From the IMG/VR virus record IMGVR_UViG_3300044701_003884, positions 1-20,130 of that record: DNA of 20,130 bases, one strand, 5' to 3'. The translations under genes and the position numbers were made by a program. The notes below the pieces were generated by a model. The model saw nothing but the letters and a program-made list of their open reading frames with translations, was not told where the DNA came from and ran no database searches. Shown in pieces: positions 937-20,130 of the stretch. The stretch comes from a virus. Each line of letters begins with the position of its first letter. The stretch's first letter is position 1.

Positions 937-1322
937 TGAGCGACACATTCCGCGCCCTGTGCGCTGAGCTAGTCCAAGAGCTGGAGCGCTACCAAGACGA
1001 TTTCCCGGCCAAGACAGACAAGATGGCTTATCGCGCCATGGCTGCCGATGCGGTGCTTGATCGCGCCCGCGCCGCCCTGGCCCGCTGGGGCCACCCCACC
1101 CCCACCCCCATCCCGGTGAGCGAGCGGCTGCCGGAGCCGGAGGACTGCGATGCGGAGGGCTTCTGCTGGTGGTTCTCCGCCGCTGATCCAACGGTCAGCA
1201 CGTTTGGCGTCGCTGCCTGCTGGGTTCTGAGGAAGCATGAGCCCGAGGACGACGATTGGCGCACTCATTGGCTCCCCGCCACCGCTCTGCCCCTGCCCCT
1301 GCCCCCTAGTGACCACCTCTAG
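936..1322 (+). CDS. DUF551-domain accessory protein, 128 aa
   Basis: The protein shares its N-terminal helix with the preceding gene. Residues about 50-125 have the DUF551 layout: PIPVSERLPEPEDCDAEG, an aromatic strand (FCWWF), a second strand (ACWVL), then THWLPATALPLPLPPSD. DUF551 proteins are small, common in phages and prophages, and of unknown function. The start is coupled to the previous stop (TAATG). The stop TAG at 1320-1322 interlocks with the stop of the convergent dcd gene: both use the palindrome CTAG (1319-1322), leaving no room for a terminator between the two units. Confidence 0.8.
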   Translation: MSDTFRALCAELVQELERYQDDFPAKTDKMAYRAMAADAVLDRARAALARWGHPTPTPIPVSERLPEPEDCDAEGFCWWFSAADPTVSTFGVAACWVLRKHEPEDDDWRTHWLPATALPLPLPPSDHL

Positions 1323-1900
1323 GCCCTGGCCAGGGTCACCGCCTCCGGCTGGTCCTGGTACTTGCCGGCCCGGTCGTGATAGCTGGTAACGCAGGGCATG
1401 CCCCGGAAGAACAGGGCCTGGACGATCCCCTCCCCCGCATAGACCCGGATGTCGGCGCTGCTGCTGTTGCTGAACTCCAGCGTCAGGTGGCCCCGCCAGC
1501 CAGCCTCCCCAGGGGTGAGGTTGGCGATCAGGCCGCAGCGCGCGTAGGTGCTCTTCCCGATGAACAGCGCTGTGACGTCCGGGGGGAGCTCTAAGTGCTC
1601 GAGGGCCACCCCCAGCCCGTAGCTGTGATGGGGCAGCACGAAGAACTCTCCCCACTCATCCCGCTGCAGGGTCACCGGCTCGAGGTTCGCCGGATTGAAG
1701 GCCTTTGGGTTGACCACGGTGCCGGGCACGTGCCGGCAGACCAGGAACTCTCGTGGCGAGAGCCTCAGGTCGTAGCCGTAGCTGCTGCAGCCGAACGACA
1801 GGGCCGGCCGCCCCTCCACCTCACGGATCAGGGAGCCCAGGAAGGGGCTGATCATGCCGGCCTGGCCCAGGCGGCTGATCTCCACGTCGCTCAGCAGCAT
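1319..1900 (-). CDS. dcd: dCTP deaminase (Dcd/dUTPase superfamily)
   Basis: The 193-aa product has the normal length for dCTP deaminase, which converts dCTP to dUTP and feeds dUMP to thymidylate synthesis. Visible motifs are the SYGYDLRLS block near residue 40, GKSTYARCG at 115-123 (the signature with the substrate-binding Ser/Arg), GWRGHLTLEFSN at 134-145 with the expected catalytic Glu142, GEGIVQ at 157-161 and the C-terminal YQDQP. It is the last gene of the alpha-CTD-like/thyX/68-aa/dcd operon, and its ATG overlaps the previous stop as TGATG. A dUTPase or bifunctional enzyme cannot be excluded from sequence alone, but deaminase is favoured by the GxxxLTLE context. With ThyX it would form a short route from dCTP to dTMP in the infected cell. 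Confidence 0.9.
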   Translation of the reverse strand: MLLSDVEISRLGQAGMISPFLGSLIREVEGRPALSFGCSSYGYDLRLSPREFLVCRHVPGTVVNPKAFNPANLEPVTLQRDEWGEFFVLPHHSYGLGVALEHLELPPDVTALFIGKSTYARCGLIANLTPGEAGWRGHLTLEFSNSSSADIRVYAGEGIVQALFFRGMPCVTSYHDRAGKYQDQPEAVTLARA

Positions 1901-2106
1901 CAGCCCAGGGCGTCGAAGGGTGTGGGATGGCCGCCTAGCCGGTCAGCCGCGGCCAGCTCGCGGAAGTAGAGGCAGCGCGCCTCGGCTGCGCTTTTCATGG
2001 CCTGCTTGGCCTCATCCTCGAGCCGGGCCGCCTCGGCGCCGGCCAGGTGGGCGCGGCGTGTGGCGCACTGCCGCAGATTCAGTATCAACTCGTAGCGGTC
2101 GCTCAT
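1900..2106 (-). CDS. 68-aa helical protein between thyX and dcd
   Basis: The ATG (2104-2106) overlaps the thyX stop as ATGA and the stop overlaps the dcd start as TGATG, so the gene is locked into the operon on both sides. The product is highly charged and alanine-rich, with a heptad-like stretch (AEAARLEDEAKQAMKSAAEA) that suggests a short coiled coil, followed by LGGHPTPFDALG. It has no recognisable catalytic motif. Its place between two dNTP enzymes suggests a role with them, for example as an adaptor, but that is inference from gene order only. Confidence 0.65.
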   Translation of the reverse strand: MSDRYELILNLRQCATRRAHLAGAEAARLEDEAKQAMKSAAEARCLYFRELAAADRLGGHPTPFDALG

Positions 2107-2849
2107 GGTGCAAGGCGGGCCTTGCCCAGTCTGTTGGCCTCATACCAGCCTGCGATCTCCGGCGTCCACGTCTGGAACTTCGGCCAGATGAGGTCGCAAA
2201 GGGCCCGGATCTCCGGCTGGGCATCGGCCTTAGAGCGGAGATCTAGGAAATGCATCATGGCCCGCAGGCTGAAGCTCACTACGAAGTGCTGCCGGTAGTC
2301 GAAGGGCAGCAGGCCCCGGGCATGCTCCTCCGCCCAACCATCCTTCTCCACCCGGTCCCGGTAGACGGCCGCGGCCACAGAGCAGAGGCCGATGTCGTGG
2401 TCGCGCTGGGCCTGGGTGTAGGTGTAGCTGTGGCCCTGCCGGTCCCGGTAGGTGCCCAGGGGCCGCAGGTAGAACACCTCCTCGAGGGCCTCGAGAGTGT
2501 TGAGCTCGGCCGCCCGGCAGATGCGGGCACCGGTGTATCGCATGCTCTGCACGTCAAAGCTCACCCCGACCCGATGGGTGCGGGCCTGCTGCATGACGCT
2601 GTGGGGGAAGAAGCCCACGTTGAGCACGATCTGGGCATGCTCCAGGGGCCCGAAATGGCCACGCTCACCGGCAAGCAGCCGTTTGACGCAGACCTCGCCG
2701 GCCCGCTCCTCATCGGGCCAGCTGTCGCGCTCATCGGCCACAAAGCCCTCGGCGTAGTCCTGGTGCATGCCGGCCCAGCAGGCCTGCTGCGGGTTGGGCG
2801 TGGCGGCGATCACCGCCACCCGGAACAGGGGATCCTGCAGGAGCTTCAT
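2103..2849 (-). CDS. thyX: Flavin-dependent thymidylate synthase ThyX
   Basis: The 248-aa product matches ThyX, which makes dTMP from dUMP using FAD, NADPH and methylene-tetrahydrofolate. Evidence is FGPLEHA (66-72) before the flavin region, then RTHRVGVSFDVQSMRYTG (90-107), the ThyX signature that binds FAD and dUMP. The spacing is slightly unusual: eight residues, not seven, lie between THR (91-93) and S102, and the first Arg of the usual RHR is Thr, with R90 just before it. I recall this variant from marine cyanobacteria and cyanophages. A helical C-terminal block (HFVVSFSLRAMMHFLDLRSKADAQPEIR) carries the second conserved arginine region. The start overlaps the upstream stop (ATGA). Phages often carry thyX to raise dTMP supply during replication. 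Confidence 0.93.
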   Translation of the reverse strand: MKLLQDPLFRVAVIAATPNPQQACWAGMHQDYAEGFVADERDSWPDEERAGEVCVKRLLAGERGHFGPLEHAQIVLNVGFFPHSVMQQARTHRVGVSFDVQSMRYTGARICRAAELNTLEALEEVFYLRPLGTYRDRQGHSYTYTQAQRDHDIGLCSVAAAVYRDRVEKDGWAEEHARGLLPFDYRQHFVVSFSLRAMMHFLDLRSKADAQPEIRALCDLIWPKFQTWTPEIAGWYEANRLGKARLAP

Positions 2850-3424
2850 GCGCGGTGCTCCAGCAGCACGGTGGCCAGGGTCCGGAGGTGTTCTGGGCCA
2901 TGGGCCGCGGCCAGGTCGGCGGCGTGCAGCAGCAGAGCCGCCTGGCGCTCCTGATCCTCGACAAGGCTCTGGAAGGCAGAGTCGATGCTCTTCAGATGCT
3001 CGTCAAGGTTGGCGCAGGGCGCTGCTGTGGCGGTCGGGGCTGCGCATGCCTCAGTCCACTGCAATGCCTCGGCGGGGGCCTGAGCCTTGCGTCGCTGGTA
3101 CTGCCTGACCGCAAACACCACCTCATTGGCGATCGTCTCGCCCACCCCCTTGATCTCGGTGAGCTGCCAGGTCGTCAGGAGCTCCACCTGGTCGACCCAG
3201 GAGATGCCGTTCCGGCGGAGAGCGTTATGGGCCAGGGTGCTGAGGTTGAGATCCGAAAGCGGTGCTCGAGGCAGTTCCGGCACCTTGCCGGTGCGCAGGG
3301 TGCGAGCGACGTCGTTCGTGTATCTGAGCAGCTGCTCGATGACAGGGTTGCGGCTGTGGCGATTCCAGAGGCCGATGGCCACCGATGGAGGGATCGCCGC
3401 TTCGAGGACGGGGGAGGCTGTCAT
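2846..3424 (-). CDS. RNA polymerase alpha-CTD-like protein, 192 aa
   Basis: Residues 55-108 (from PLSDLNLSTLAHNALRRNGI through LTEIKGVGETIANEV) follow the RNA polymerase alpha C-terminal domain: the 'I.eL.LS.ra.N.L...gI' helix, then 'L..ikg.G..s..Ei', the helix-hairpin-helix-like element that touches UP-element DNA and activators. There is no alpha N-terminal dimerisation domain; the first 50 residues and the last 70 (helical, two cysteines) are unfamiliar. It is the first gene of the thyX/dcd operon, and its stop overlaps the thyX ATG as ATGA. No clear Shine-Dalgarno precedes the ATG, and a near-perfect dyad lies 8 nt upstream (3432-3449). A free alpha-CTD could act as a regulator, a decoy for host activators or simply a DNA-binding HhH domain. 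The fold match is good by eye; the function is inferred. Confidence 0.6.
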   Translation of the reverse strand: MTASPVLEAAIPPSVAIGLWNRHSRNPVIEQLLRYTNDVARTLRTGKVPELPRAPLSDLNLSTLAHNALRRNGISWVDQVELLTTWQLTEIKGVGETIANEVVFAVRQYQRRKAQAPAEALQWTEACAAPTATAAPCANLDEHLKSIDSAFQSLVEDQERQAALLLHAADLAAAHGPEHLRTLATVLLEHRA

Positions 3425-5746: not shown

Positions 5747-6907
5747 CTACGTTGTCGGCAGCCGGTTACCCCTCGCCGCAAGGGGCCTCAGTCTCTTCCT
5801 GGGAGGGTGGGGAGCACAGGACCTGCACAGCAGGATCTGAGGTCTGGGTGGCCGGCCCCCCTCCAGCAGGGTCATCTGCCCCGGCGGTGGCTCGGTGCAG
5901 CGCCGCCGGTAGATTCGCCGCGGCTGGTGACGGACCTTAGAGGCCGCCACTTCGACCAGGGCCAGCTGATCCAGCACCTCTGCAGAGGGCCCGTTCCACT
6001 CCGGCAGCGGCACCGGCGGCAAGGTCGCGACAGGCGGCCCCATCTCCGGCCCCTCGCCCTCCATCGCCACCCAGGCGCGGAGCTTGTTTCGGGCGGTGGT
6101 CTCGATCTGTCGGATCCGCTCACGGCTCAGGCCCAGCTCGGACGCAATGGCCTGGTGCGTGCTGTTCTGCAGGTAGTAGCGGTGCATCACCATCTGCTCC
6201 TGGGGCAGGAGCCTGGGCAACAGCCGCTCGAGGATGGTCTGCTGCACGCTGGCCTCGACCGAATCCATCGGATCGCCTTCGGTGCTCCGGGGGCAGGGGA
6301 TCGCGTCCCAGAGCGCCAGGTTGTCGCCCACCGGCTTGTCGAGGCTGGTGACCGCACGACGCAGCGCTGCCGTGCGCAGCAGCTCCAGCTGGCTCGGATT
6401 GAGGTTCAGGGCGGTGCAGATCTGGTCGTCGCTGGGTCGCACCCCGCGGTGCTCCTGCCTGGCGACGTAGGCCTCCACGTTCCGCAGCTTGTCGCCGATG
6501 TTGCAGGGCAGCCGGATGGAGCCGCTCATGTTGCTCAGGGCCCTGGTGACCGACTGGCGGATCCACCAGTAGCTGTAAGTGCTGAACGCATACCCGCGCG
6601 CCGGGTCATAGAGCTCTGCTGCCCGGCTCAGGCCGATGGCCCCCTCCTGCACCAGGTCCTCGAGAGGCAACCCCAACTTCTGGTACTTGCGGGCGATCGA
6701 AACCACCAGTCGCATGTTGGTCTCGACCAGGCGCCGCTTCGCCCTGGTGCCGGCCCTGCGCACCCCTGGCGGGGCATTGTCCGGCCCACCCTTCCAATCC
6801 AACCAGCGGCGCACCAGGCGGCCAGCCTCGAGCTGCTGCTCATGGCTGAGGATCACGAAGCGCCCGAACTGATCGAGCATGCGGTCACAGGCGGTTTGCA
6901 CGGCCAT
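5747..6907 (-). CDS. Sigma-70-family RNA polymerase sigma factor
   Basis: Numbering here is from the upstream ATG at 6976. Region 1.2-like sequence ([20 protein letters not shown]) starts at residue 33. Region 2 spans about 81-150: [18 protein letters not shown], the core-binding [14 protein letters not shown], and the -10-recognition [17 protein letters not shown]. Region 3 follows to about 230, and region 4 (249-305) ends in the [23 protein letters not shown]. This resembles cyanobacterial group-2/3 sigma factors. About 95 residues follow region 4 as a Pro/Arg-rich tail, which is unusual. The start is uncertain: 6976 leaves only 39 bp to the divergent portal gene, 6880 begins at region 1.2, and 6907 is taken here; none has a good ribosome site. 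It probably directs host polymerase to phage promoters. Confidence 0.85.
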
Positions 6908-7015
6908 ACAGGAGCCAGGACGCGCGCAGCCTACGGAATCCCTGCATCCACGGCCATGGATGCCGAGATTCTGCATCCTGAACCGTCTCTAGCCTGATCC
7001 GATGGGCTGATCGGG

Positions 7016-9136
7016 ATGGATTTCGAGGAAAGGCAGGACGGTGTGCTGGTCAATGCCCTCACGGGCATGGGCACCAGCAGGGACCGCACGGCGATCACCA
7101 CGGTGGCGTCGCCGGAGTTCCTGGGGGAGGCCGATCTCGACAGCCTCTACCTCAACTCCTGGCTGTGCCGGAAGGTGGTGAATATCACCGCCAGCGAGGC
7201 CACCCGCATGGGCTGGGACATCGCCCTGGGCGACGACACCAAGAAGGCCCGCCGGCAGTCCGACGACCTCATCGCCGCCGGCGAGCGGGTGCGAATCCGC
7301 AAGCACGTCCGCCGAGCGGTCCAGCTGGCCCGGCATCACGGCGGCGCGGTGCTGATCATGCTGGTGGATGACGGCGCCAAGGGCTTTGAGCAGCCGATCC
7401 GCTGGCGTGCCCTGAAACGCATCCGAGGCCTCTACGCCCTCGATCGCTGGAGGATCTGGCCCGCGCCGGGCTGGAGCGGGATAGGCGTCCCGGACTACTA
7501 CGAGTTCAACACCAACGCCGACGCCGATCTGGCCCGCATGGGGCTGGAGGGCACCCAGACGGTGAAGATCCACTCCAGCCGGGTGTTGAGGTTCGAGGGG
7601 GAGGAGGTGCCCTGGCGCTGGCGGTCCCACTTCAACTGGTGGGGCGTGTCGGTGCTGCAGCCGATCTGGGAGGTGTTCCGCCGCTACGAAACCGGCCAGA
7701 ACAGCGCGGCCAGCCTGCTCCATGACTTCGACCAGTTCGTCCACAAGATCCCCGGTCTTGGGCAGATGATCTCCTCCGGCAATCAGGAGGCCATCACCCG
7801 CCGGCTGGAGGTGAACCAGATGGCGCGCTCCGTCTATCGGGCCCTGGTGCTCGATGCCAACGAAGACGCCACGTTCATCACCCGATCGGCCGCCGGCATC
7901 GCCGATGTGTTGGATCGCCTCACCCAGGAGGTGACCGGCGCCTCCGGCATGCCCCACACGAAGCTTTGGGGCGAATCACCCAGCGGTCTGGGGGCCACTG
8001 GCCGCAGTGAGGACCGGTCGTTCGCGCAAGACATCGCCGAATACCAGGAGGACTTCCTACAGGACCCCCTGCGGCAGTTCTACGAGACCCTCATGCGCTG
8101 CAGCGATGGGCCCTTCACCGGCGAGCCCCCCGAGGACTGGCGCATCCAGTTCCGGCCCACCTTCGTGATGACCGACGAGGAATCCGCCACACTGCGGCAA
8201 TCGGTGGCCGCGGCCGACGTCCAGTACATCCAGGCCGGCGTGCTCAAGCCGAACGAGGTGGCCCTGGCGCGGTTTGGGCGGCCCGAGTTCTCCCTTGACA
8301 CCACCCTCATCGATCGGGAGCCCGATGGCTCGATCAAGGAGGAGGAGCAGGACCCGAACGCGATCGAGTTCGGAGGTGATTTCGGCCAGCAGGCCCAGGC
8401 GGAAGGGGAAGAGGGGGCCGGCGGGGAGGCCCCGGGCCTCAATGGGGCTGAGGTGGCTGGCCAGCAGGCTGCCGCCGGCGCCCAGCAGGCCCAGCAGCTG
8501 CGCACCACAACGGACGCCGCCGATGAGCCCTGCTGCGCCTCCTGCGGCCGCGGCGAGGACTGCGAAGAGGACTGCGACGGCTCCAGCTGTGAGAAGGAGG
8601 ATGAACAGCCGGATGACCCCGACATGCACAAGCACCCCGACAAGGTGGGGCAGGTGATGCACCGCTGGAAGCACGGAACCCTGCACAGCGGCACGGGTGT
8701 GAAGGGTGAGCACCGCGGCCCGGTCCGTTACAGCAAGGGCAACCGCAAGCAGGCGATCGCCATCGCCCTGTCGATCGCCGGCAAGAGCAAGCCCCGCCGC
8801 CGGCAGGGCCGCCGCCGCACCGTCCGGGAGGATGCCTGGGAGCTGCCCGCACGCCTCACCGTCGCCGGTGTGACGGTCGACGTGGGCACCGATGGCACTG
8901 GCGCCCTGATCGGCCCCTATGGCACCCCCACGCCCCATCAGGCGGTGGTGGGCCCCGACCCGGCCGGCCTCTGGGAGGTGATGGACAGCACAGGTGAGTG
9001 GTTCGCCGTGGTGGGCGTCGCTGACCAGCAGGCCCTCGAGGCCGCGGCCGGCCCTGATGCCAGGGTGCGCCGCCTCGATGCCATCGACCTCGTGGCCCTG
9101 GGGGTGCGCTGCGACGCCTACCAGGAGGGCGAGTGA
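7016..9136 (+). CDS. Phage portal protein (DUF1073 type) with C-terminal extensions
   Basis: The first 430 residues of this 706-aa protein match the DUF1073 portal family: LYLNSWLCRKVVNITASEATRMGW in outline, a central region with RVLRFEG, the SVLQPIWEVFRRYETG helix, TGASGMPHTKLWGESPSGLGATGRSEDRSFAQ, and the DEESATLRQSVAAAD-type stem helices. Portals form the dodecameric DNA gate of the head. Some databases label this family Acb1-like; the length and the MuF neighbour favour a portal. Beyond it come an acidic Gln/Ala linker, a cysteine cluster (CCASCGRGEDCEEDC, about 503-517), a DUF6496-like block (VGQVMHRWKHGTL to KQAIAIALSIAGKSK), a basic RRRQGRRR stretch and an unknown 95-aa domain. Its stop overlaps the next ATG (TGATG). 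No terminase gene lies upstream in this window. Confidence 0.9.
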   Translation: MDFEERQDGVLVNALTGMGTSRDRTAITTVASPEFLGEADLDSLYLNSWLCRKVVNITASEATRMGWDIALGDDTKKARRQSDDLIAAGERVRIRKHVRRAVQLARHHGGAVLIMLVDDGAKGFEQPIRWRALKRIRGLYALDRWRIWPAPGWSGIGVPDYYEFNTNADADLARMGLEGTQTVKIHSSRVLRFEGEEVPWRWRSHFNWWGVSVLQPIWEVFRRYETGQNSAASLLHDFDQFVHKIPGLGQMISSGNQEAITRRLEVNQMARSVYRALVLDANEDATFITRSAAGIADVLDRLTQEVTGASGMPHTKLWGESPSGLGATGRSEDRSFAQDIAEYQEDFLQDPLRQFYETLMRCSDGPFTGEPPEDWRIQFRPTFVMTDEESATLRQSVAAADVQYIQAGVLKPNEVALARFGRPEFSLDTTLIDREPDGSIKEEEQDPNAIEFGGDFGQQAQAEGEEGAGGEAPGLNGAEVAGQQAAAGAQQAQQLRTTTDAADEPCCASCGRGEDCEEDCDGSSCEKEDEQPDDPDMHKHPDKVGQVMHRWKHGTLHSGTGVKGEHRGPVRYSKGNRKQAIAIALSIAGKSKPRRRQGRRRTVREDAWELPARLTVAGVTVDVGTDGTGALIGPYGTPTPHQAVVGPDPAGLWEVMDSTGEWFAVVGVADQQALEAAAGPDARVRRLDAIDLVALGVRCDAYQEGE

Positions 9137-9477
9137 TGGGGGAGCAGGATCCGACAGGGCGGAGCGCCCATGAGCCTGGCGCCAAGCTGGACGCTGGCAA
9201 GGTCCGGGCCGGGCTGGTGCTGGGAGGCTTCAGCCGGGCCCTGTGGGCTGTGTCTGAGGTGGGCACGTTCGGCGCGCGGAAGTACACCCCCAACGGCTGG
9301 CGATCGGTGCCCGATGGAATCGAGCGCTATACCGACGCACTGGAGCGCCACCGGTTGCTCGAGGCCATGGGCCACTGCACCGATCCAGATTCAGAGCTCC
9401 TGCATGCGGCGCACACGGCCTGGAACGCCCTCGCCCGCCTGGAGCTGCTGCTGCTTGAGCTGGAGCAGCCCCAGTGA
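9136..9477 (+). CDS. dATP/dGTP diphosphohydrolase-like protein (DUF5664 type)
   Basis: ATG 9136 forms TGATG with the portal stop; a GTG at 9133 is an alternative start one codon earlier. The 113-aa product matches the DUF5664 / dATP-dGTP diphosphohydrolase N-terminal pattern almost throughout: HEPGAKLDAGKVR, LVLGGFSRALWAVSEVGTFGA-KY, NGW, RYTDALERH, then DSELLHAAHTAWNALARLEL. The conserved His/Asp/Glu and Trp-Asn positions suggest a metal-dependent all-alpha (MazG-like) nucleotide hydrolase. Related phage proteins cleave dATP or dGTP, but the family is mostly untested. It is unusual to find it between portal and MuF genes. It ends in a GTGA overlap with the MuF gene, so it is translated with the head genes. 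Confidence 0.8.
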   Translation: MGEQDPTGRSAHEPGAKLDAGKVRAGLVLGGFSRALWAVSEVGTFGARKYTPNGWRSVPDGIERYTDALERHRLLEAMGHCTDPDSELLHAAHTAWNALARLELLLLELEQPQ

Positions 9478-10838
9478 GCCAGGAGAGGCGGGAGCAGCTG
9501 GCCCAGCAGCTGAGCGATGAGCTGCGGGGCCTCGAGGACCAGCAGATCGCCCGCATCGGTCGGGTGTGGGAGTCAGCCCTACGGCAGACCATCCGCCGGG
9601 TGATGCGCCTCTTCGATGGGATCGAGGATCAGCCCTGGTACGACCCGAAGACCACCCCGGGCGCCTTCCTCGGCTCTACCCCGGACGGACCGGTGCCGAT
9701 CGATCCCACCCAGAAGAACCAGGCGGCCCTCTACCTCGAGGGGCAGCTGATCCAGGACCTGCGGCGGGTGCTCAGCGAGATGACGCTCACCCCCCAGCAG
9801 GAGGCCCGGCTGGAAGAGGAGCTCGCCACCCTGTTCAACCGGGCCCAGGACCTCGGCACCGAGTACGCCATCCAGCTGACGCGCGAGGACCTCGAGCCGG
9901 CCCTGCAGGCCATCCGGCGCCCGGAGCAGGATCCGGTGCTGCAGCAGTGGCCCGATCGCGAGCAGGCCCGCTACCAGGAGGGGCAGCGCTTCACGCGCCT
10001 GTTCGACATGGCCGGATCAGTGGCCGCGGCCGAGCGGGACTTTCGCAGCCTGGCAATGAACTACCTGCGGCAGCGGGAGCTGGCCACCGATGCCCACGTG
10101 GCCGCCTCGAAGCACTACTACTTCAAGTGGTGGCGGCACTGGGGGGAGACCGTGTCGTTCCTCACCGCCCGGCAGATGGCGGCCGGCCCCGATCCACGGC
10201 GGCTGAAGCGGGAGCTGCAGAAGGCCATCCCGAACGTCAACGAGGCCTTCCGGAACCGGGCTGAGACCATCGCGAGGACTGAGACACTAATGGCCTCCGG
10301 CGAGGCCCAGGAGCGCACCTACCGGCGCCTGCGGGTGGGCTTTGTGCAGTACGTCGCCACCAGGGATGACCGCACCTGTGAGTTTTGCGCGCCCCGGGCC
10401 GGGGCCCTGTACTGGATCGGTTCGGTGAAGACCCCGATCCATCCGAACTGCCGCTGCGATCTCACCCCGGTGACGCTGGAGAGCCTGGTTCTGCAGAACA
10501 GCTTCTCGGATGGGGCTGGCGGCACCTGGGAGGCGGAGGCCCAGGCCCAGGCCGCGGCGGTGCAGAAGCACTTTGAGGCCACCAATGGCGAGGGGGCAGC
10601 CATGAAGCCGATCGGCGGCCCCGGGCAGGCCCGCAGCCCCCGAGACCTGCCGCTGATGGAGCGCAACGGCTTGCCGATGACGAAGAAGCGGCAGGCCCTG
10701 CCGGCCGATGACCCCCGCAACGCCGGCTCAAGGCCCTGGCCCGCGGGGGAGCCTGTGTGGTGCCCCCGGCGGGGCTGGCTGGATCCGAACGCCCGCGCCA
10801 CCTATGAGGCGGTGGTGGCCGAGGTCCGGGACCTGTAG
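9474..10838 (+). CDS. MuF/SPP1 gp7-type minor head protein
   Basis: The start is GTG 9474, overlapping the previous stop as GTGA. The first 250 residues are helical and charged. Residues about 260-335 carry the MuF signature: AETIARTETLMASGEA, then TRDDRTCEFCAPRAG (C302, C305) and TPIHPNCRCDLTPV (C326, C328), the Cys/His set typical of this domain. MuF proteins sit inside the head at the portal, enter with the DNA in some phages and help head assembly. The last 120 residues (Gln/Ala helix, then a basic Pro-rich segment) are unfamiliar and may be a linker or a packaging tail. The 3' end overlaps the convergent HTH gene by 37 nt. The gene order portal-MuF is the classical one. Confidence 0.92.
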   Translation: MSQERREQLAQQLSDELRGLEDQQIARIGRVWESALRQTIRRVMRLFDGIEDQPWYDPKTTPGAFLGSTPDGPVPIDPTQKNQAALYLEGQLIQDLRRVLSEMTLTPQQEARLEEELATLFNRAQDLGTEYAIQLTREDLEPALQAIRRPEQDPVLQQWPDREQARYQEGQRFTRLFDMAGSVAAAERDFRSLAMNYLRQRELATDAHVAASKHYYFKWWRHWGETVSFLTARQMAAGPDPRRLKRELQKAIPNVNEAFRNRAETIARTETLMASGEAQERTYRRLRVGFVQYVATRDDRTCEFCAPRAGALYWIGSVKTPIHPNCRCDLTPVTLESLVLQNSFSDGAGGTWEAEAQAQAAAVQKHFEATNGEGAAMKPIGGPGQARSPRDLPLMERNGLPMTKKRQALPADDPRNAGSRPWPAGEPVWCPRRGWLDPNARATYEAVVAEVRDL

Positions 10839-12938: not shown

Positions 12939-13078
12939 CGCTTGATCGGGCGGGTGGCCTGGATGGGCGACGGATCGCTGAGTGCAATGGCGTCGCGGAC
13001 GCAGCTGAAGACCGCCAGGCCGCTGATCAGCAGCAGGGCGGGCAGATACAGGAAGAGGGCCTCACTCCTTGTGGGCAT
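12935..13078 (-). CDS. 47-aa single-pass membrane protein
   Basis: The ATG at 13078 has GAGGA 5-9 nt upstream and its TGA overlaps the next ATG (ATGA), so it is the first gene of the minus-strand operon. Residues about 8-26 (LFLYLPALLLISGLAVFSC) form a hydrophobic segment long enough for one transmembrane helix, preceded by TRSE and followed by a short polar tail ending RPIKR. A lone cysteine (C26) ends the helix, but the context does not look like a classical lipobox. Small phage membrane proteins include holin-like, spanin and superinfection-exclusion factors; nothing here picks one. Confidence 0.55.
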   Translation of the reverse strand: MPTRSEALFLYLPALLLISGLAVFSCVRDAIALSDPSPIQATRPIKR

Positions 13079-13125
13079 GGTTCCTCATGGCAAATGGACC
13101 GGCCGCCGATCGACGACCACGGGCA

Positions 13126-13145
13126 CCATACAGGAGCTTGGATGG
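13126..13145. promoter_or_regulatory. Imperfect dyad in divergent control region
   Basis: CCATACAGGAGCTTGGATGG matches its reverse complement at 14 of 20 positions. It lies about 50 nt upstream of the minus-strand operon start. Its first 12 nt (CCATACAGGAGC) recur exactly at 6904-6915, upstream of or over the sigma-factor start. On the minus strand it reads TGTATGGT, a possible weak -10. Confidence 0.3.
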
Positions 13146-13182
13146 CTGCGCAGTCCTTCGGGCACCCGGATCTTGGCCTAGT

Positions 13183-13200
13183 CATCCAGAAGCCTGGATG
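13183..13200. promoter_or_regulatory. Perfect-stem dyad, putative operator
   Basis: CATCCAGAAGCCTGGATG has 7-bp arms CATCCAG and CTGGATG around AAGC. It ends 3 nt before the extended -10 at 13204, where a repressor or activator would be expected. It contains TCCA-N6-TGGA, as does 3432-3449, and its left arm CATCCAG repeats at 3488-3494. It is probably an operator for the forward promoter; the binding protein is unknown. Confidence 0.5.
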
Positions 13201-13203
13201 CTC

Positions 13204-13257
13204 TGTTATCATTCAGGGGCCGGGGGGAGGCCTCCGGTGTTCCATCGCGAGAGAGTC
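13204..13257 (+). promoter_or_regulatory. Leader repeat 3: extended -10 plus GAGG-loop hairpin
   Basis: TGTTATCAT (13204-13212) is an extended -10. Seven nt later CCGGGGG (13220-13226) pairs with CCTCCGG (13231-13237), with one G-T pair, around loop GAGG (13227-13230). TTCCATCG and then the ATG at 13258 follow. The stem bases differ from leaders 1 and 2 but the fold, the loop and the -10-to-hairpin distance are kept. Confidence 0.6.
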
Positions 13258-13836
13258 ATGCAACAGCTGTTGCTGCCTGACAACGTCATTCCCCTCTTCG
13301 GCTACTGCCTGCGCGGCTGCGGCAGGCCTGCCACCCGCCGGGTGCCTCAGCCCAACGGCGACATTCACTGCCTCTGCGACGACGAGCCCAACTGCAGGCA
13401 GAAGGCCCGCGAGCTTTACATGCCCGCGTACTGCGATCCGGCCAATGAGGTGCGTGGCAACCTCTATGACCGCGACCTGGACGTCAAGGAGATCGCCAAG
13501 CGCATGCGCCAGGCCATTAAGGCCGAGCTGCCCGGCGTGAAAGTCAGCGTCAAAATCCAGCGTTACAGCGGCGGCGCGTCGATCGACGTCTGGGTGAAAG
13601 AGATGCCCTGCGACTGCCAGCCGATCATCCCCCGGCAGCAGTGGCATGAAGAGCGCGACCGGACCGGCATCTTGCGGCCCTGGCGCGAAAACTACAAGCC
13701 TGAGATGGCTGCCGCCATGGACAAGATCAAGGAGATCCACGGTCGCTGGAACCGCGACAACAGCGACACCATGGTCGACTATTTCGATGTCAACTACTAC
13801 GGCAGCGTCCACGATCCCAACGGGACCAGCTGGTAG
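13258..13836 (+). CDS. LPD29-type polyvalent-associated protein, 192 aa
   Basis: The frame opens upstream, but ATG 13258 lies at the end of leader repeat 3 and is taken as the start. Residues 17-46 hold a cysteine cluster (CLRGCGRPATRR, CLCDDEPNC) that may bind zinc. Residues about 72-185 match the large polyvalent protein-associated domain LPD29: DVKEIAKRMRQAIKAELPGV, KVSVKIQRYSGGASIDV and near the end NSDTMVDYFDVNYYG. LPD domains are known from phage and plasmid polyvalent proteins, where they accompany effectors; their activity is unknown. Here the domain is in a stand-alone protein directly before the two large polyvalent genes. A terminator follows 24 nt after the stop, so it is probably its own transcript. 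Confidence 0.7.
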   Translation: MQQLLLPDNVIPLFGYCLRGCGRPATRRVPQPNGDIHCLCDDEPNCRQKARELYMPAYCDPANEVRGNLYDRDLDVKEIAKRMRQAIKAELPGVKVSVKIQRYSGGASIDVWVKEMPCDCQPIIPRQQWHEERDRTGILRPWRENYKPEMAAAMDKIKEIHGRWNRDNSDTMVDYFDVNYYGSVHDPNGTSW

Positions 13837-14236: not shown

Positions 14237-16354
14237 ATGACCAATCTGCAGGAAATCGCCCGACTCGTTCGCGAGGAGCTGCTCACGCTGATCCGCCCGG
14301 TTCAGCTGCTGTCAGTCAACCCGAAGAAGGCGACAGGGGAGGTCTCCGGCAGATTCAAGTCGAATGGGATCCTGTTCGACTACTCGATCCAGGGCGGCAC
14401 GGTCACTTACAGGCCCGTGGGCGCCGGCGGCGGCCGCAGCGATTCGGCCGATCACGTGGTTGAAGCTGGTGCGCGTCTGGACGCTGCTAGGGGCAAGCCT
14501 CGCAACTGCACCACCGGCTACGCCTGCGGGAACACTTGCATCCAGAAAGGACGGAAGTGCCGCGCCAAGGGGGGCGCCGCCGCTGCCAAGCTCGAGCAGG
14601 CCGTGAAGATGCTCCCTGCTGCTGGACAGAGCAGCGGCGAGGCTGCGCCACAGCGAACGGCTGCGCCGAAGAAGAACCCGGCAGCGGCCCCAGCCGCCAA
14701 GGCCTCCGGGAAGGGCCCCAGCCTGAAGGAAGCGAAGAGCGCTGTGCTGGAGGCGTTCGACGTCGAGAGTGTGGCCGCCCTCAAGGCGGACGATGAGTTC
14801 AAGATGTCCATGGCCGGCGAGGAGACCAACCCGCTGCGCAGCAAGGAGGACTGGCTGAAGCTCTACCGGCGCTTTGTGAAGGTGCCAGAAAACGAGCGCA
14901 ACCTGCCCGACGGCCCCACCGTGGTCAACGGCATCGATGTGATCAAGAACTTCAGGCCCTGGGCTGTGTTTGGCCTGAATCCCAGGACGGCGACCGCAGA
15001 TAACGTGAGATCAAGGTTCCGCGAGCTGATCATGCAGCACCACCCGGACAAGGGTGGTGATCCCCGAGTGGCGGAGCGACTCAAGAAAATGCGCGATTCC
15101 ATGCTTGCCTTCATGCCCAATGACCGGAGGGCTGGGAGTCGGAGCGATGCCGACTTATCAGAGACAGCGGAGCTGGTCCGGGCCCTGCGCGTCTCTCAAC
15201 AGTCCCTGCGCCATCGCTGGAGCACGGCGCGGGCCGATGGCTATCAAGAGGCGCTGGAGCGGCTCGATGCAGCCAAGAAGAACTGCAGCACGGGCTACGG
15301 CTGTGGCAGCACCTGTATCGAGGTCAGCAAGCTCTGCAGGAAGAAGGGTGGAAGAGCTGCCAAGAAGCTGTCCGAGGCCGTCAGCGGTGGCGGCGCATCC
15401 AGGCCTGCACAAAGCGCGGCTCAGAGGGAGAAGCGCATCGCCGCACTGAATGCCAGGCGCAACCAGATTGGCGCAGATCTTGTGACCGCCCTGATGCGGC
15501 CGCGGCCTGATGGCCAGGGCAACTACATCGAGAACCCCGATGCTGCTGCCATGCAGCGGATCAGGCGGGCCAAGAAGCGGGTGGCGGAGATTGACGCGGA
15601 GCTCAATGTGCTGGAGGGCAAGGACCCCAAGACCAAGCGCTGGATTGAAGGCGACCCCTACGGGCTGCAGCAATACTCCGACTTCCAGAGTCCTGGCAGG
15701 CGCGCCTACGAAGAGAACGTCATCATCCCCAGGGAGATGAGTGGTGCCGAGGTGGGGGACCAGGCGGTCTTCATGTCCGGCGGCCCTGCATCAGGGAAAA
15801 CCTCGTTGCTCAAGGCTCGGTTTGGCGAGGCAGAAGGGTTCGTGACGATTGACCCCGATCGGCTCAAGGACTATGACCCGGTCATGGCGATCGGCGTCGC
15901 CATGGGGATGAGAGAGGCGGCAGCGCTGGCCCATGAGAACTCCAGCCGCCTTGCAAAGGAGATCTACGCGCGAGCGCGAGACGGCCACTTCAACATCGTG
16001 GTGGACGGGACTGGGGCCAAAGCTGACAAGTACATCGAGCAAATGGAGGAGCTCAAGGGCAAGGGCTATGGCATCACGCTGCTGGCGCAACACATCCCGA
16101 AGGAAGAAGGAGTGAAGCGCGCAGAGGCCAGAGCGGACCGCACAGGCCGGTTCGTTCCACTGAAGTTCATCGCAGAGGCCTACGACATCATCCCTGGCAA
16201 TTTCGAGCGCCTAGCTCGCGTCGCTGGCAAGGCCACGTTGAACGATGGAGAAAGCGGAGAGGTGATCATGGAGTACCAGGACGGCCGCCTGGTGGGTGGG
16301 AATAAACAGCGCATCTCCGCCTACCGCAAGCAGTACGGTCAGCCGAAGCGCTGA
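14237..16354 (+). CDS. Polyvalent protein: J domain plus zeta-toxin-like kinase, 705 aa
   Basis: Domains in order: an unknown N-terminal part; cysteine motif 1 at 91-113 (C-x2-GYACG-x2-CI-x5-CR); an Ala/Pro/Lys linker; a J-like domain at about 240-290 with HPD at 269-271, in a HHPDKGGD context as in DnaJ; a helical segment; cysteine motif 2 at 350-372; a helical spacer; and a zeta-toxin/AAA-type kinase from about 505, with Walker A GGPASGKTS (K521), IDPDRLKDYDP, VVDGT (D590) and RTGRFVP near the end. Zeta toxins phosphorylate UDP-GlcNAc, and related kinases have other targets. J and zeta domains are both listed among polyvalent-protein modules of phages. The protein lies downstream of MuF and has no signal peptide. 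It may act in the host soon after DNA entry. No antitoxin (epsilon) gene is seen beside it. Confidence 0.8.
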   Translation: MTNLQEIARLVREELLTLIRPVQLLSVNPKKATGEVSGRFKSNGILFDYSIQGGTVTYRPVGAGGGRSDSADHVVEAGARLDAARGKPRNCTTGYACGNTCIQKGRKCRAKGGAAAAKLEQAVKMLPAAGQSSGEAAPQRTAAPKKNPAAAPAAKASGKGPSLKEAKSAVLEAFDVESVAALKADDEFKMSMAGEETNPLRSKEDWLKLYRRFVKVPENERNLPDGPTVVNGIDVIKNFRPWAVFGLNPRTATADNVRSRFRELIMQHHPDKGGDPRVAERLKKMRDSMLAFMPNDRRAGSRSDADLSETAELVRALRVSQQSLRHRWSTARADGYQEALERLDAAKKNCSTGYGCGSTCIEVSKLCRKKGGRAAKKLSEAVSGGGASRPAQSAAQREKRIAALNARRNQIGADLVTALMRPRPDGQGNYIENPDAAAMQRIRRAKKRVAEIDAELNVLEGKDPKTKRWIEGDPYGLQQYSDFQSPGRRAYEENVIIPREMSGAEVGDQAVFMSGGPASGKTSLLKARFGEAEGFVTIDPDRLKDYDPVMAIGVAMGMREAAALAHENSSRLAKEIYARARDGHFNIVVDGTGAKADKYIEQMEELKGKGYGITLLAQHIPKEEGVKRAEARADRTGRFVPLKFIAEAYDIIPGNFERLARVAGKATLNDGESGEVIMEYQDGRLVGGNKQRISAYRKQYGQPKR

Positions 16355-16370
16355 TGGGCCCACAGTCGAT

Positions 16371-16376
16371 TACAGT
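16371..16376 (+). promoter_or_regulatory. Possible -10 element
   Basis: TACAGT lies 21 nt before the ATG at 16397, in the short gap after the zeta gene, and matches the hexamer at 13891-13896 in sequence and in distance from the start. No -35 is clear. Confidence 0.25.
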
Positions 16377-16396
16377 TGTCCCGGAGGTGACCCCCC

Positions 16397-16576
16397 ATGA
16401 AACGAGATCGTGATGCTGAGTTCTTCGACCAACTGAAGAAGGAGATCGACGCCGAGCGCAACGTCGACTATGGCGCCCGTTCGGCCGACGAGGATGCCCG
16501 CATTGCCAACTACCCCAAGGACACCCCTCCTGGGTATGCCGGAATCAAGGCTGCTGACTTCTTCGACGGGGACTGA
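16397..16576 (+). CDS. 59-aa acidic hypothetical protein
   Basis: ATG 16397 has a strong Shine-Dalgarno (GGAGGTGA, 16383-16390). The product is very acidic (MKRDRDAEFFDQLKKEIDAE, then ARSADEDARIANYPKD) and ends GIKAADFFDGD. It is small, soluble and without cysteine. It lies between the zeta-kinase and ParB-like polyvalent genes. Size and charge would fit an antitoxin or DNA mimic, and its place would fit an immunity partner for one of its neighbours, but there is no family match, so this remains a guess. Confidence 0.6.
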   Translation: MKRDRDAEFFDQLKKEIDAERNVDYGARSADEDARIANYPKDTPPGYAGIKAADFFDGD

Positions 16577-16604
16577 ATCTGGCTGAAATAGGCGGATTCA
16601 GAAT

Positions 16605-16625
16605 GCAGGTACTGAGGTGACCTGC
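16605..16625 (+). promoter_or_regulatory. Hairpin with Shine-Dalgarno in its loop
   Basis: GCAGGT (16605-16610) pairs with ACCTGC (16620-16625). The 9-nt loop ACTGAGGTG holds GAGGTG, the ribosome site for the ATG at 16630. The fold could present or tune the site. A 6-bp stem may be chance. Confidence 0.35.
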
Positions 16626-16629
16626 GCAA

Positions 16630-19600
16630 ATGGCCGCGGCCAGGGGAGTGAGGATTGATGCAGTTGCGGCTCAACTCGCGCGGCTCGATGCGCGGGTGAA
16701 GCTGGGTGGGGCCCGTTCATCGGCCGGCCGGCAGAGAGTGACTGCTGCTCCTGGCCAGCTGGGCCTCGATCTCACGGGCGGTGGCCAGGGGCAGGCCTGT
16801 GGTGACGGTTGGATTGCGTCGGGCCTGACATGCCACAAGGGCCAGTCCGGTCAGCAGGCGCCGCGGAAGGAAGGGAGCAAGTCTGAGGAGAAGCCCGGAT
16901 CGGATTCGGGCACCAGCCTGGCCAAGCGCACAAACGAAGCGCGCCGGCGGCTTGTGACAACCATTGGCGAGGCAGGTGGCCTCAGCGACGAGGATGCCGG
17001 CCTGGTGGCTGACTTCTACCTGGCGAAGAGCAAGGAGGGCGGCGCCGGTGCCGCGAAACTCGATCCCCACGTCGGGCAGTTCACTGTCATCCATGGGGCC
17101 TTCATGGAGCGGGACTCGCTGCAGAAGGCCCTGGCCGCGGCCAGACAGTGGAAGGCCGGCAAGGAGCCTGTGCTCACCACTCCCAGCCGGGTGGACCCTG
17201 GCCTGGCGCCGAAGGCCAAGCAGTCGGGCATCAATGCTCAAGACGTGACCACTACTGCCCAGCAGGCCCAGCTGGCCCGCCAGCAGCGCCAGGCCGCGGC
17301 CGCCGCCGGTGACAAGGCTGGCGCCAAGGCCTGGCAGGAGGCGGAACGCAAGGCGGAACGCGATCGCCTCAAGATGGCCATGAACCGGGGCCAGCAGCAG
17401 CAGTCCTCCCTGTTCGGCGTCACCGAGTACGACGAGACCATGCCGCTGTTCCAGCGCCGGGACAGCGTCGACCCTGTGGCCCAGCTGGTGGGCAAGATCC
17501 TGCGCGACCAGCTCCCCGGGGCGGAGGTGCTCGACTGGAGCCGCCAGCCGCGGGGTATCACCGCCGGCCGGGCCGTCAGCGAGGGGCTGGTCTACCGGTT
17601 CCGCTGTGATTCCGACTCGATCGGCTACCAGCCCGCCTGGGACGGGATCGATGAGCGGCAGTGGGAGCTGCGCTCCGAGGGCTTCCTGATGGCCCGCGAC
17701 CCCTCGATGCGCCTCGACTTCAAGCGAGGGGGCGGCGTCAAGTTCCAGCAGGCGAAAACGAAGCGCCAGTGCAGCAAGGGCTATGGCTGCGGTTCGGCCT
17801 GCATCGCGATGAACAAGGAGTGCCGCGTCCAGCCCGCCAGCGCGATCAGCAAGGTGCGGCTCAAGCAGCTGCAGGCCCTCGCGCAGGAGGGTGACGCAAA
17901 GGCCGCGGCCCGGGCCCAAGAGCTGCAGATGGAGCGGGACGTCAAGGCCCAGGGGCTGCGGAAGGGCCGGCAGACCGCGAAGCTCGAGAAGCTGCTCGAG
18001 GATCCCCGGGTGGCGGAGATGGTTCGCACCGGGAAGATCCCCGAGGCTGGAGGCCAGGGCGGCGATGGAGCCCCGCAGCCGGGGCAGGTGCGGAACGTCA
18101 AGCCCGGCGAAGTGGAGGTGGATCCGGAGCGGTTCCAGTACAAGATCGGCAGCAGCGCCACCGGAGAGGTGGGAAGCCTGAGTGGCGTGCAGCGCTGGGA
18201 TCCGAACCTGGCCGGGGTGATCAGCGTCTGGCAGGACCCAGAGGACGGCAAGACCTATGTGGTGAACGGGCACAACCGGCTGGCCCTGGCGCGCCGCCTG
18301 GGGGCCGAGGAGGTGACTGTCCGCTACCTGAAGGCCAAGGACGCCCAGGAAGCCCGGTCGATCGGGGCCATGCAGAACATCGCCGAGGGCGCGGGCAGTG
18401 AGATCGACGCCGGCAAGTTCTTCCGCGACAGCGGTGTCAAGACAATCGAGGAGGTGAAGGCCAAGGGGCTGCCCCTGAACAGCGGGAAGGCGGAGAAGGG
18501 CCTGGCCCTGGCTCAGCTGCCCGATGAGATGTTCCAGGACGTGGTGCAGGGCAACCTGCGCGTGCGCCGGGCTGCGGTGATCGGCGCCTCAGGTCTGGAT
18601 CAGGACAAGCAGCGGGAGGTCTACAAGATGCTGAAGGCCCGGCCGTCAATGACCGACGAGACTCTGGCCGAGTACGTGGAGCACCTGGCTGTCAGCACGC
18701 GCCAGAGCCAGACCGAGATCGATCTGTTCGGCGCTAATGAGACGTCGGTGGATACCGGCCTGGCCCGGGCAGAACTGGCCAATGGCCTGAAGAAGGCCCT
18801 CGGCCGTGAGGCGCGCCTGCTCGGTGCTGTCTCCAAGACCCAGCAGGCCAAGGAGCTACTCGAGCAGAAGGGCGGCAACGTCATCAACGTCGAGCAGAGC
18901 CAGAAGCAGGCCAGCGAGGCCAGCAGCGTGCTGCGCACCTTTGACCGTCTCAAGAACTTCTCCGGGCCCATCCGCGCTGCCCTGGATGAGGCCGCGGCCA
19001 GGGTCACCGCCGGCGAGAACCGCAACAAGGTGGCCCGTGAGCTGCGCGAGGCCGTGGTGCAGGCGATGGAAGAGGAGCTCCGCAACGCCGGCCTGAGGCC
19101 CGAGCAACCCCCCCGCGACGAGCTGACCATGAACCTGTTCGACTCCGCCGATCGCTTTGATGCCCTGGCGGCCCGGATCGATGCCCTGAAGCGCAAGTGC
19201 AACACCGGCTATGCCTGCGGCAGCACCTGCATCAGCCCCGCCAAGGAGTGCCGGTCCGAGGGGGGCACCAGCAAGCAGCGGGCCCAGCGCCTCGAGGAGA
19301 TCGCCCAGGGTGGCAAGGCTGGCCGCGGCATCGGCCAGCTGCGTGGAGAGGCTGCAGCGGCAAAGGCCGAGGAAATCCGCGGCGCCCGATCGGAGCGTGC
19401 CGCCCAGCTGCGTCAGCAGCGTGCCCAGCAGCGCAGGGGCGGGGCCCTGGCCGTGAGCGGTGGTCAGCCCGGTGCCATCGACGTGGAAGTGGTGTCCAGC
19501 TCCATCAGCCGGCCGGCGCCGGCCCGGCCCAGCGGAGGCAAGCCGGGTGGCATCGCTGACACCATGCGGCAGGCCCTCAACGCCATGAAGGCAGCCGATG

Positions 19601-20130
19601 CCCGTCAGATGGGCATGGTGGCCGAGCAGCTGTTCGAGAGCGAGTGGATCCTCGAGCGCCGCAAGCGCTATCGGGGCATGAGCAAGGATCAGGCCCGCGA
19701 GGCGTTCAAGGCGAAGTTCGCCAAGGATCTGCAGGAGGCCGACCAGGCCCGCCGTGCTGCGGGGCCCTCTGATGCAGCTCGCCGCGCGGCAGAGGCCGGC
19801 AGCGTCGCCGGTGCGATGCGCTCGCTGATCAAGGACATGAAAGCCTCGGATGAACGACTGCAGGAGCTCACCGAGCGGACGATCGATCTGCGGGTACAGG
19901 CCGAGGAGTTCAACGAGGGCGGCGACGATGGAGCCCTGGGCGGCACTGCCAAGCGCCGGCGCCTAGGGGGCCGCCGCCGTGATTCGGCATCCAGTGGTGG
20001 CGGGGAGCCGTGCGGGAACAGCTGGATCGATCCCAACAAGACCTGCCGAAAGGGGGGCGGATCCGAAGCGGGACTCAAAATTGTTGAGAAACAGGAATGG
20101 CAGCCAGGCGCGAGCGCAACCGCTGTAGCC
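16630..20130 (+). CDS. Large polyvalent protein with ParB-like domain (3' end outside window)
   Basis: The frame is open from ATG 16630 to the last base (1167 codons, no stop), with GAGGTG upstream. In order it has: a CG-x2-WI-x5-C motif (57-68); an unknown domain (about 85-180); a Gln/Ala helix; QSSLFG; an unknown domain (about 250-375); a full cysteine motif (381-403); a ParB/sulfiredoxin-like domain (about 495-600) with TYVVNGHNRLALARRLGAEEV and an AMQNIAEG helix; helical segments with QTEIDLF (694-700); a second full cysteine motif (857-879); long Ala/Arg/Gln-rich helices; and a second CG-x2-WI-x5-C (1128-1139). ParB-like domains are common modules of phage polyvalent proteins, where they may bind or cut DNA or hydrolyse nucleotides. 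The cysteine motifs link it to the J/zeta protein. The rest is unfamiliar. Confidence 0.78.
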   Translation, partial: MAAARGVRIDAVAAQLARLDARVKLGGARSSAGRQRVTAAPGQLGLDLTGGGQGQACGDGWIASGLTCHKGQSGQQAPRKEGSKSEEKPGSDSGTSLAKRTNEARRRLVTTIGEAGGLSDEDAGLVADFYLAKSKEGGAGAAKLDPHVGQFTVIHGAFMERDSLQKALAAARQWKAGKEPVLTTPSRVDPGLAPKAKQSGINAQDVTTTAQQAQLARQQRQAAAAAGDKAGAKAWQEAERKAERDRLKMAMNRGQQQQSSLFGVTEYDETMPLFQRRDSVDPVAQLVGKILRDQLPGAEVLDWSRQPRGITAGRAVSEGLVYRFRCDSDSIGYQPAWDGIDERQWELRSEGFLMARDPSMRLDFKRGGGVKFQQAKTKRQCSKGYGCGSACIAMNKECRVQPASAISKVRLKQLQALAQEGDAKAAARAQELQMERDVKAQGLRKGRQTAKLEKLLEDPRVAEMVRTGKIPEAGGQGGDGAPQPGQVRNVKPGEVEVDPERFQYKIGSSATGEVGSLSGVQRWDPNLAGVISVWQDPEDGKTYVVNGHNRLALARRLGAEEVTVRYLKAKDAQEARSIGAMQNIAEGAGSEIDAGKFFRDSGVKTIEEVKAKGLPLNSGKAEKGLALAQLPDEMFQDVVQGNLRVRRAAVIGASGLDQDKQREVYKMLKARPSMTDETLAEYVEHLAVSTRQSQTEIDLFGANETSVDTGLARAELANGLKKALGREARLLGAVSKTQQAKELLEQKGGNVINVEQSQKQASEASSVLRTFDRLKNFSGPIRAALDEAAARVTAGENRNKVARELREAVVQAMEEELRNAGLRPEQPPRDELTMNLFDSADRFDALAARIDALKRKCNTGYACGSTCISPAKECRSEGGTSKQRAQRLEEIAQGGKAGRGIGQLRGEAAAAKAEEIRGARSERAAQLRQQRAQQRRGGALAVSGGQPGAIDVEVVSSSISRPAPARPSGGKPGGIADTMRQALNAMKAADARQMGMVAEQLFESEWILERRKRYRGMSKDQAREAFKAKFAKDLQEADQARRAAGPSDAARRAAEAGSVAGAMRSLIKDMKASDERLQELTERTIDLRVQAEEFNEGGDDGALGGTAKRRRLGGRRRDSASSGGGEPCGNSWIDPNKTCRKGGGSEAGLKIVEKQEWQPGASATAVA

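Follow-up and report, generated by a model that had tools for sequence, protein, structure and literature searches.

Why do two large, neighbouring proteins of one virus carry the same short cysteine pattern six times, in the stretches between their unrelated domains? We addressed this question for IMGVR_UViG_3300044701_003884, positions 1-20,130 (the window, i.e. the whole 20,130-nucleotide stretch of viral DNA that was analysed, to which all coordinates refer). The pattern, CG-x2-[CW]-I-x5-C, recurs in a protein with DnaJ-like and zeta-toxin-like kinase domains (protein A) and in a ParB-like protein (protein B). It is a real, widespread and unnamed module. We propose, with a probability of about 0.5, that it forms a cationic disulfide hairpin and acts as an exchangeable tag by which virion cargo is addressed or anchored.

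Six motif copies in two phage proteins

A pattern search located the six copies at the residues named in the initial annotation, two in A and four in B. No further copy was found in the six frames of the whole window, and 20,000 shuffles of A and B did not yield a single motif match. Four copies are long and read C-x2-G-Y-x-C-G-x2-C-I-x5-C-R (cysteines C1 to C4). The two short copies read C-G-x2-W-I-x5-C, where tryptophan takes the place of C3 and the first cysteine is missing. The C-x2-GY-x that precedes the four long copies, the arginine that follows them and the tryptophan of the short ones had all been described before, and we see them too. Of the 21 cysteines in A and B, 20 are located within motif copies (8/8 in A, 12/13 in B).

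Protein A is an open reading frame (ORF) of 705 amino acids (14237..16354; all features of A and B are on the plus strand) with the order motif, DnaJ-like domain, motif, zeta-toxin-like kinase. Copy A-1 (CTTGYACGNTCIQKGRKC; long, four cysteines) spans 14507..14560 or residues 91-108, with the CG-x2-[CW]-I-x5-C core at residues 97-108. It is followed by the DnaJ-like domain (14981..15097, residues 249-287), a sub-threshold Pfam DnaJ match (8.6e-6; 26.2 bits against a cut-off of 27.8). Copy A-2 (CSTGYGCGSTCIEVSKLC; long, four cysteines) lies at 15284..15337 or residues 350-367, with its core at 356-367, and coincides with a phrog_33618 match at residues 350-369. The kinase domain covers 15764..16219, residues 510-661 (Pfam Zeta_toxin, 5e-24). 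The protein also matches phrog_16619, 'minor head protein', at 7e-10.

Protein B (16630..20130; phrog_21, 1.3e-58) is at least 1166 amino acids long, as its ORF is open at the 3' end and runs into the end of the contig at 20130. Its order is short motif, motif, ParB-like region, motif, short motif. The pattern search places the short two-cysteine copies B-1 (CGDGWIASGLTC) at 16798..16833, residues 57-68, and B-4 (CGNSWIDPNKTC) at 20011..20046, residues 1128-1139. The long four-cysteine copies are B-2 (CSKGYGCGSACIAMNKEC; 17770..17823, residues 381-398, core 387-398) and B-3 (CNTGYACGSTCISPAKEC; 19198..19251, residues 857-874, core 863-874). Residues 321-418, around B-2, match Planktothrix phage PaV-LD, and the ParB-like region, a PHROG match to the C-terminal part of phrog_21 (17965..19071, residues 446-814), is homologous to proteins of Prochlorococcus phage P-SCSP1. 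Both copies in A are outside the DnaJ-like and zeta domains, B-2 and B-3 are outside the ParB-like region, and all six copies lie outside the recognised domains, which agrees with their earlier description as sitting between domains.

The invariant spacing that the initial annotation had noted applies to the window. In relatives, C2-x3-C3-x6-C4 is retained, but the gap between C1 and C2 varies from 5 to 7 residues (6 or 7 in PaV-LD, 5 or 6 in Aphanizomenon phage CL131). Selection on the protein had been deduced from third-position codon differences between the copies; these synonymous changes are real but weak on their own, and the stronger argument is the conservation of the motif across more than 100 contigs.

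A widespread module without a name

For the family as a whole we used the pattern C-x2-G-x2-CG-x2-CI-x5-C; the module comprises ~18-25 residues and has a strong positive charge in its long form. At least 119 viral contig stretches contain it, compared with three for a control pattern in which two gaps were shifted by one base each, a rough control for chance. Across 76 aligned copies, seven columns do not vary (C, G, C, G, C, I, C), and the flanks of the motif are not conserved.

Comparison with Pfam and NCBIfam, in which Excalibur was considered, gave no family at cut-off over the motif. None of the solved structures in the PDB matches the profile of the phage motif, and a literature search for the core motif strings returned no relevant context. 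The profiles phrog_33618 ('unknown function') and phrog_16619 ('minor head protein') do take in the motif region; these are whole-protein clusters that do not set the motif apart as a module. The statement that no named family was known for the element thus holds for the Pfam, NCBIfam and PDB comparisons. Likewise, we found no name or description for the module, its cysteine logic or its spread over cyanophage portals and effectors.

Cysteines are gained and lost in pairs

To follow the pairing of the cysteines, we scanned with C2, C3 and C4 fixed and C1 left free and, separately, with an aromatic residue or histidine fixed at C3. Where C3 is present, C1 is present in 66/66 non-redundant genuine copies, 60 of them at the standard distance and six, mainly of the CKHCxxxSKPCGDSC type, one or two residues farther away. 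Seven further matches in frames of 20-89 amino acids were set aside by eye as chance. Where C3 is aromatic or histidine, C1 is missing in 14/14 copies, and another scan gave the same pattern. A Fisher test of this pairing gives ~5e-16 (computed with 67 instead of 66), a value that is too strong because copies were counted as independent despite their relatedness. Some proteins without C3 hold exactly two cysteines in total. Short forms mostly have H, F, W or Y in place of C3, which is a poor fit to a metal ligand. In variants with six cysteines (L089, L098, L051 and L145), an extra pair at C1+4 and C1+13 was gained together.

Outside the motif, cysteine is nearly absent. The motif proteins of PaV-LD, CL131 and S-CBWM1 contain four cysteines in 7,894 residues outside it (0.05%), compared with 202 in 24,628 residues (0.82%) for other genes on the same stretches; this comparison uses annotated genes, since plain control ORFs include spurious frames. 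PaV-LD encodes six proteins of 360-808 amino acids with exactly four cysteines, all inside the motif. In the window, A and B together have one cysteine outside the motif, against 78 in 3,869 residues of other genes. Such avoidance is as expected for proteins that meet an oxidising environment. From the pairwise cysteines, the nearly cysteine-free bodies and the mostly secreted bacterial relatives described below, we infer disulfides C1-C3 and C2-C4, with C2-C4 alone in the short form. Of the 'zinc or disulfide knuckle' that had been suggested initially, the disulfide option is favoured by the paired cysteines, while the zinc option is disfavoured by this pairing, by the lack of a CxxC and by the secreted relatives.

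AlphaFold2 predicts a short hairpin with strands from C1+4 to C2 and from C3-1 to C3+1. Its confidence (predicted local distance difference test, pLDDT) reaches ~80-86 within the motif only, and the flanks are unsure. For a relative with eight cysteines a small beta fold is predicted confidently (pLDDT ~93); a fold search with this model found no similar solved fold, which at 40 residues shows little. Net charge per 26 residues averages +5.1 in phage copies and +4.2 in cellular copies, with a background of +0.5.

The sole sequence match in the PDB is the cyclotide cliotide T10 (PDB 7s55), at E = 0.06 and for the eight-cysteine form only. Cyclotides and knottins (CGE[ST]C loop) likewise have CG-x2-C followed by a hydrophobic residue in a small disulfide-bonded beta structure. 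However, cyclotides possess six cysteines and a cyclic backbone, whereas the copies in the window have four or two cysteines. They lack the six-cysteine knot, and we rejected their assignment as cyclotides or inhibitor cystine knots. The resemblance is probably convergent.

Carrier proteins and the link to the virion

By their sequences, the carriers appear to be virion-type proteins. Portals with the motif have a C-terminal extension and bear the motif after, or close to the end of, the portal match; in two of them (L009 and L087) the order is portal, motif and ADP-ribosyltransferase (ART), and in L079, L017 and L038 it is portal and motif. Other carriers are ART, kinase, DnaJ, zeta, lipase-like, InPase, Endonuclease I and ParB-like proteins. 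Single phages encode several motif proteins, namely seven in PaV-LD, four in CL131 and five in S-CBWM1. In a Calothrix prophage, a motif-bearing Portal_Mu protein adjoins a large terminase, and DnaJ-like and ADP-ribosyltransferase proteins, each with a motif, are encoded within 30 kb. The first copy starts at most 60 amino acids from the protein start in 26/52 phage proteins; the copies in the window are partly internal.

The most direct link to the virion comes from Synechococcus phage S-CBWM1. Its APH-like kinase has the motif at the N-terminus (residues 6-23), and in its ChoK-like and RIO-like kinases the motif lies a short way before the annotated starts, in the same frame. PMC10665884, which cites Xu et al. 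2018, states that all three of these kinases were detected in virions. The PknB-like kinase gp024, which is without the motif, is not named there. The three kinases are the strongest evidence for the packaging of motif-bearing effectors. Together with the virion-type carriers, they favour the packaging tag for proteins entering the head that the initial annotation had listed among its options.

The other motif carriers of S-CBWM1 are gp091 and gp023, an annotated virion structural protein that adjoins the major head protein. In gp036 and gp084 (L362:2331-3203 and L243:20399-21325), an in-frame ATG and the motif precede the annotated kinase starts, so these starts are probably wrong.

Relatives in bacteria

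Among the matches listed from a scan of bacterial genomes, most are small secreted proteins of Proteobacteria, in which the motif directly follows the signal peptide. By a crude test, at least 47/67 bacterial relatives have a signal-like N-terminus, and many of the others have uncertain starts. Alignment A1 and its model, in which copy B-3 is the first sequence, contain a few secreted-type sequences, and secreted relatives found with A1 are therefore not independent. A version with eight cysteines (CC-x2-C1...C4...GCAC) is C-terminal and is likewise present in secreted nucleases of the SNase and GmrSD_C types. As a C-terminal domain of the form CC-x2-C-x2-GKACGDSCIxxxxxC...GCAC, it is unnamed and found in many bacteria (L195, L208, L231 and L183:613-795).

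A motif exclusive to phages is therefore rejected, as the module is also present in small secreted bacterial proteins and secreted nucleases. The initial annotation had regarded random positions in unrelated non-phage proteins, or a known domain that explains the motif, as evidence against its proposal. Non-phage proteins do carry the module, but their copies are not placed at random, being found either at the C-terminus or right behind the signal peptide, and no known domain matches. Of the cyanobacterial genomes, 3/292 match and two of these three matches are in large phage-type proteins, so that in this group the motif belongs essentially to phages and prophages.

Genomic neighbourhood of A and B

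A and B lie downstream of genes for a portal protein (7016..9136, plus strand; Phage_portal_3, 1.6e-68) and a MuF-like head morphogenesis protein (9474..10838, plus strand; Phage_Mu_F, 1.3e-9). Residues 504-528 of the portal (8525-8599), just N-terminal of DUF6496, form an acidic, cysteine-rich stretch, EPCCASCGRGEDCEEDCDGSSCEKE. Its charge is opposite to that of the motif, and it is a possible candidate for a motif partner. A protein with an LPD29 (large polyvalent protein associated) domain at 13069-13836 (plus strand) has ten cysteines, none of which is within a motif.

Published work describes polyvalent proteins in phages and conjugative elements, among them zeta-like kinases fused to MuF, and states that cyanobacteria have few of them (PMC5512222, Iyer et al. 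2017). A and B are likewise multidomain, virion-type proteins with effector domains, and show the several unrelated effector or DNA-related domains that define this class: DnaJ-like and zeta-like kinase domains in A, and a ParB-like region within at least 1166 amino acids in B. The main text of PMC5512222 does not mention the cysteine module (the word 'cysteine' is absent).

The window also encodes an RNA polymerase alpha C-terminal domain protein (2846-3424, minus strand; PF03118, 1.4e-6) and a sigma-70 family factor (5747-6976, minus strand; 2.2e-19), which suggests that host transcription may be redirected. A nucleotide-metabolism set consists of dCTP deaminase-like (1319-1900, minus strand), ThyX (2103-2849, minus strand) and dATP/dGTP diphosphohydrolase N-terminal domain (9133-9477, plus strand) proteins, the last of which sits between the portal and MuF genes.

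Discussion

We propose that the motif is a mobile mini-module that would fold into a small beta-hairpin, clamped by the C1-C3 and C2-C4 disulfides. Cyanophages would attach one to four copies of it to the extensions of portals, to minor head proteins and to 'polyvalent' effectors that act on the host. As a handle, it would place and hold unrelated cargo near the portal or the genome during assembly, either via charge-based binding of the packaged DNA or via a common virion partner. On this view, proteins A and B would act as injected effectors, their working domains interspersed with several handles. We infer both the tag role and the delivery into the host. More speculatively, the clamps may close under the oxidising conditions of the virion and come apart once in the host cytosol. 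An extended version, a redox-gated packaging code, strikes us as unlikely, if attractive: the hairpin, taken from secreted bacterial disulfide peptides, would gather portals and enzymes at the portal, oxidation would lock them in place and the reducing cytosol would release the effectors.

Several points weigh against an address tag. The secreted bacterial relatives have no capsid as a destination, and the primitive function of the module must therefore be more general. The short copies in the window are not cationic, with net charges of -1 and 0, and the joint loss of C1 and C3 may rest on few evolutionary events. The virion data for S-CBWM1 are second-hand and concern one phage, and a kinase that is not named in PMC10665884 is not thereby shown to be absent from the virion. 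That source also reports an NMNAT-like protein of S-CBWM1 and a kinase of S-CRM01 in virions. There is no annotated NMNAT among the five S-CBWM1 motif proteins, and a motif scan of S-CRM01 returned no match, although an empty answer alone shows little. Going by this source, packaging does not depend on the motif, and some proteins enter the virion without one. Nor is it a general mark of virion kinases, an idea we rejected because S-CRM01 has none.

The main rival of the tag is a purely structural clamp, a sturdy spacer or cap for oxidising places such as the virion and the periplasm that has no addressing role. We regard it as a possible but less favoured explanation. Pairwise cysteines and cysteine avoidance fit it equally well, as do the secreted bacterial relatives and the copies at module junctions. 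It does not readily explain why the motif sits at the extreme N-terminus (residues 5-6) of single-domain kinases, where there is nothing to separate, or why one phage has it on several unrelated proteins. The positive charge of phage and cellular copies, together with the eight-cysteine form at the C-terminus of secreted nucleases, would also suit a cationic nucleic-acid-binding knuckle that binds the packaged genome or, in secreted proteins, the anionic envelope or extracellular DNA, with packaging as a by-product. The uncharged and slightly acidic short copies of the window speak against this, sequence and fold comparisons gave no match to a DNA-binding domain, and we consider such a knuckle quite improbable.

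A zinc knuckle of four cysteines, folded in the cytosol, would account for four spaced cysteines in large phage proteins without signal peptides and for the histidine at C3 in many short forms. Yet the loss of C1 goes with that of C3, whose place is also taken by Phe, Trp or Tyr so that two cysteines are left; there is no CxxC, and forms with two, four, six and eight cysteines dominate. As relatives are mostly secreted, cysteine is avoided elsewhere in the carriers and no Pfam zinc family was found at the motif, we judge zinc binding very unlikely. Hardly any weight falls on the processing site that had also been considered initially, at which a head protease or another enzyme would free effectors from structural parts. 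The motif does occur at portal/effector junctions (L009, L079 and L087), where release would be needed, but neither secreted bacterial relatives nor N-terminal kinase tags need it, a hairpin clamped by disulfides makes an unfavourable target for a protease, and the flanks are not conserved.

A short packaging tag common to several proteins is a known concept from the internal proteins of phage T4. Unrelated packaged proteins, including the ADP-ribosyltransferase Alt, have in common a short, often N-terminal capsid-targeting sequence, which is not known to be a cysteine module and is cut off by the prohead protease. The element described here differs in being a cysteine module that is also internal, present in several copies and found on portals as well.

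The selection of enzymes for packaging and injection by phages is understood in few models. If the tag reading is true, it would account for the motif that several unrelated proteins share within one phage, and the injected effectors of uncultured cyanophages would become predictable from sequence alone. The hairpin might then also serve as a portable loading tag. Beyond phages, the module defines an unnamed and presumably disulfide-bonded module in secreted bacterial proteins.

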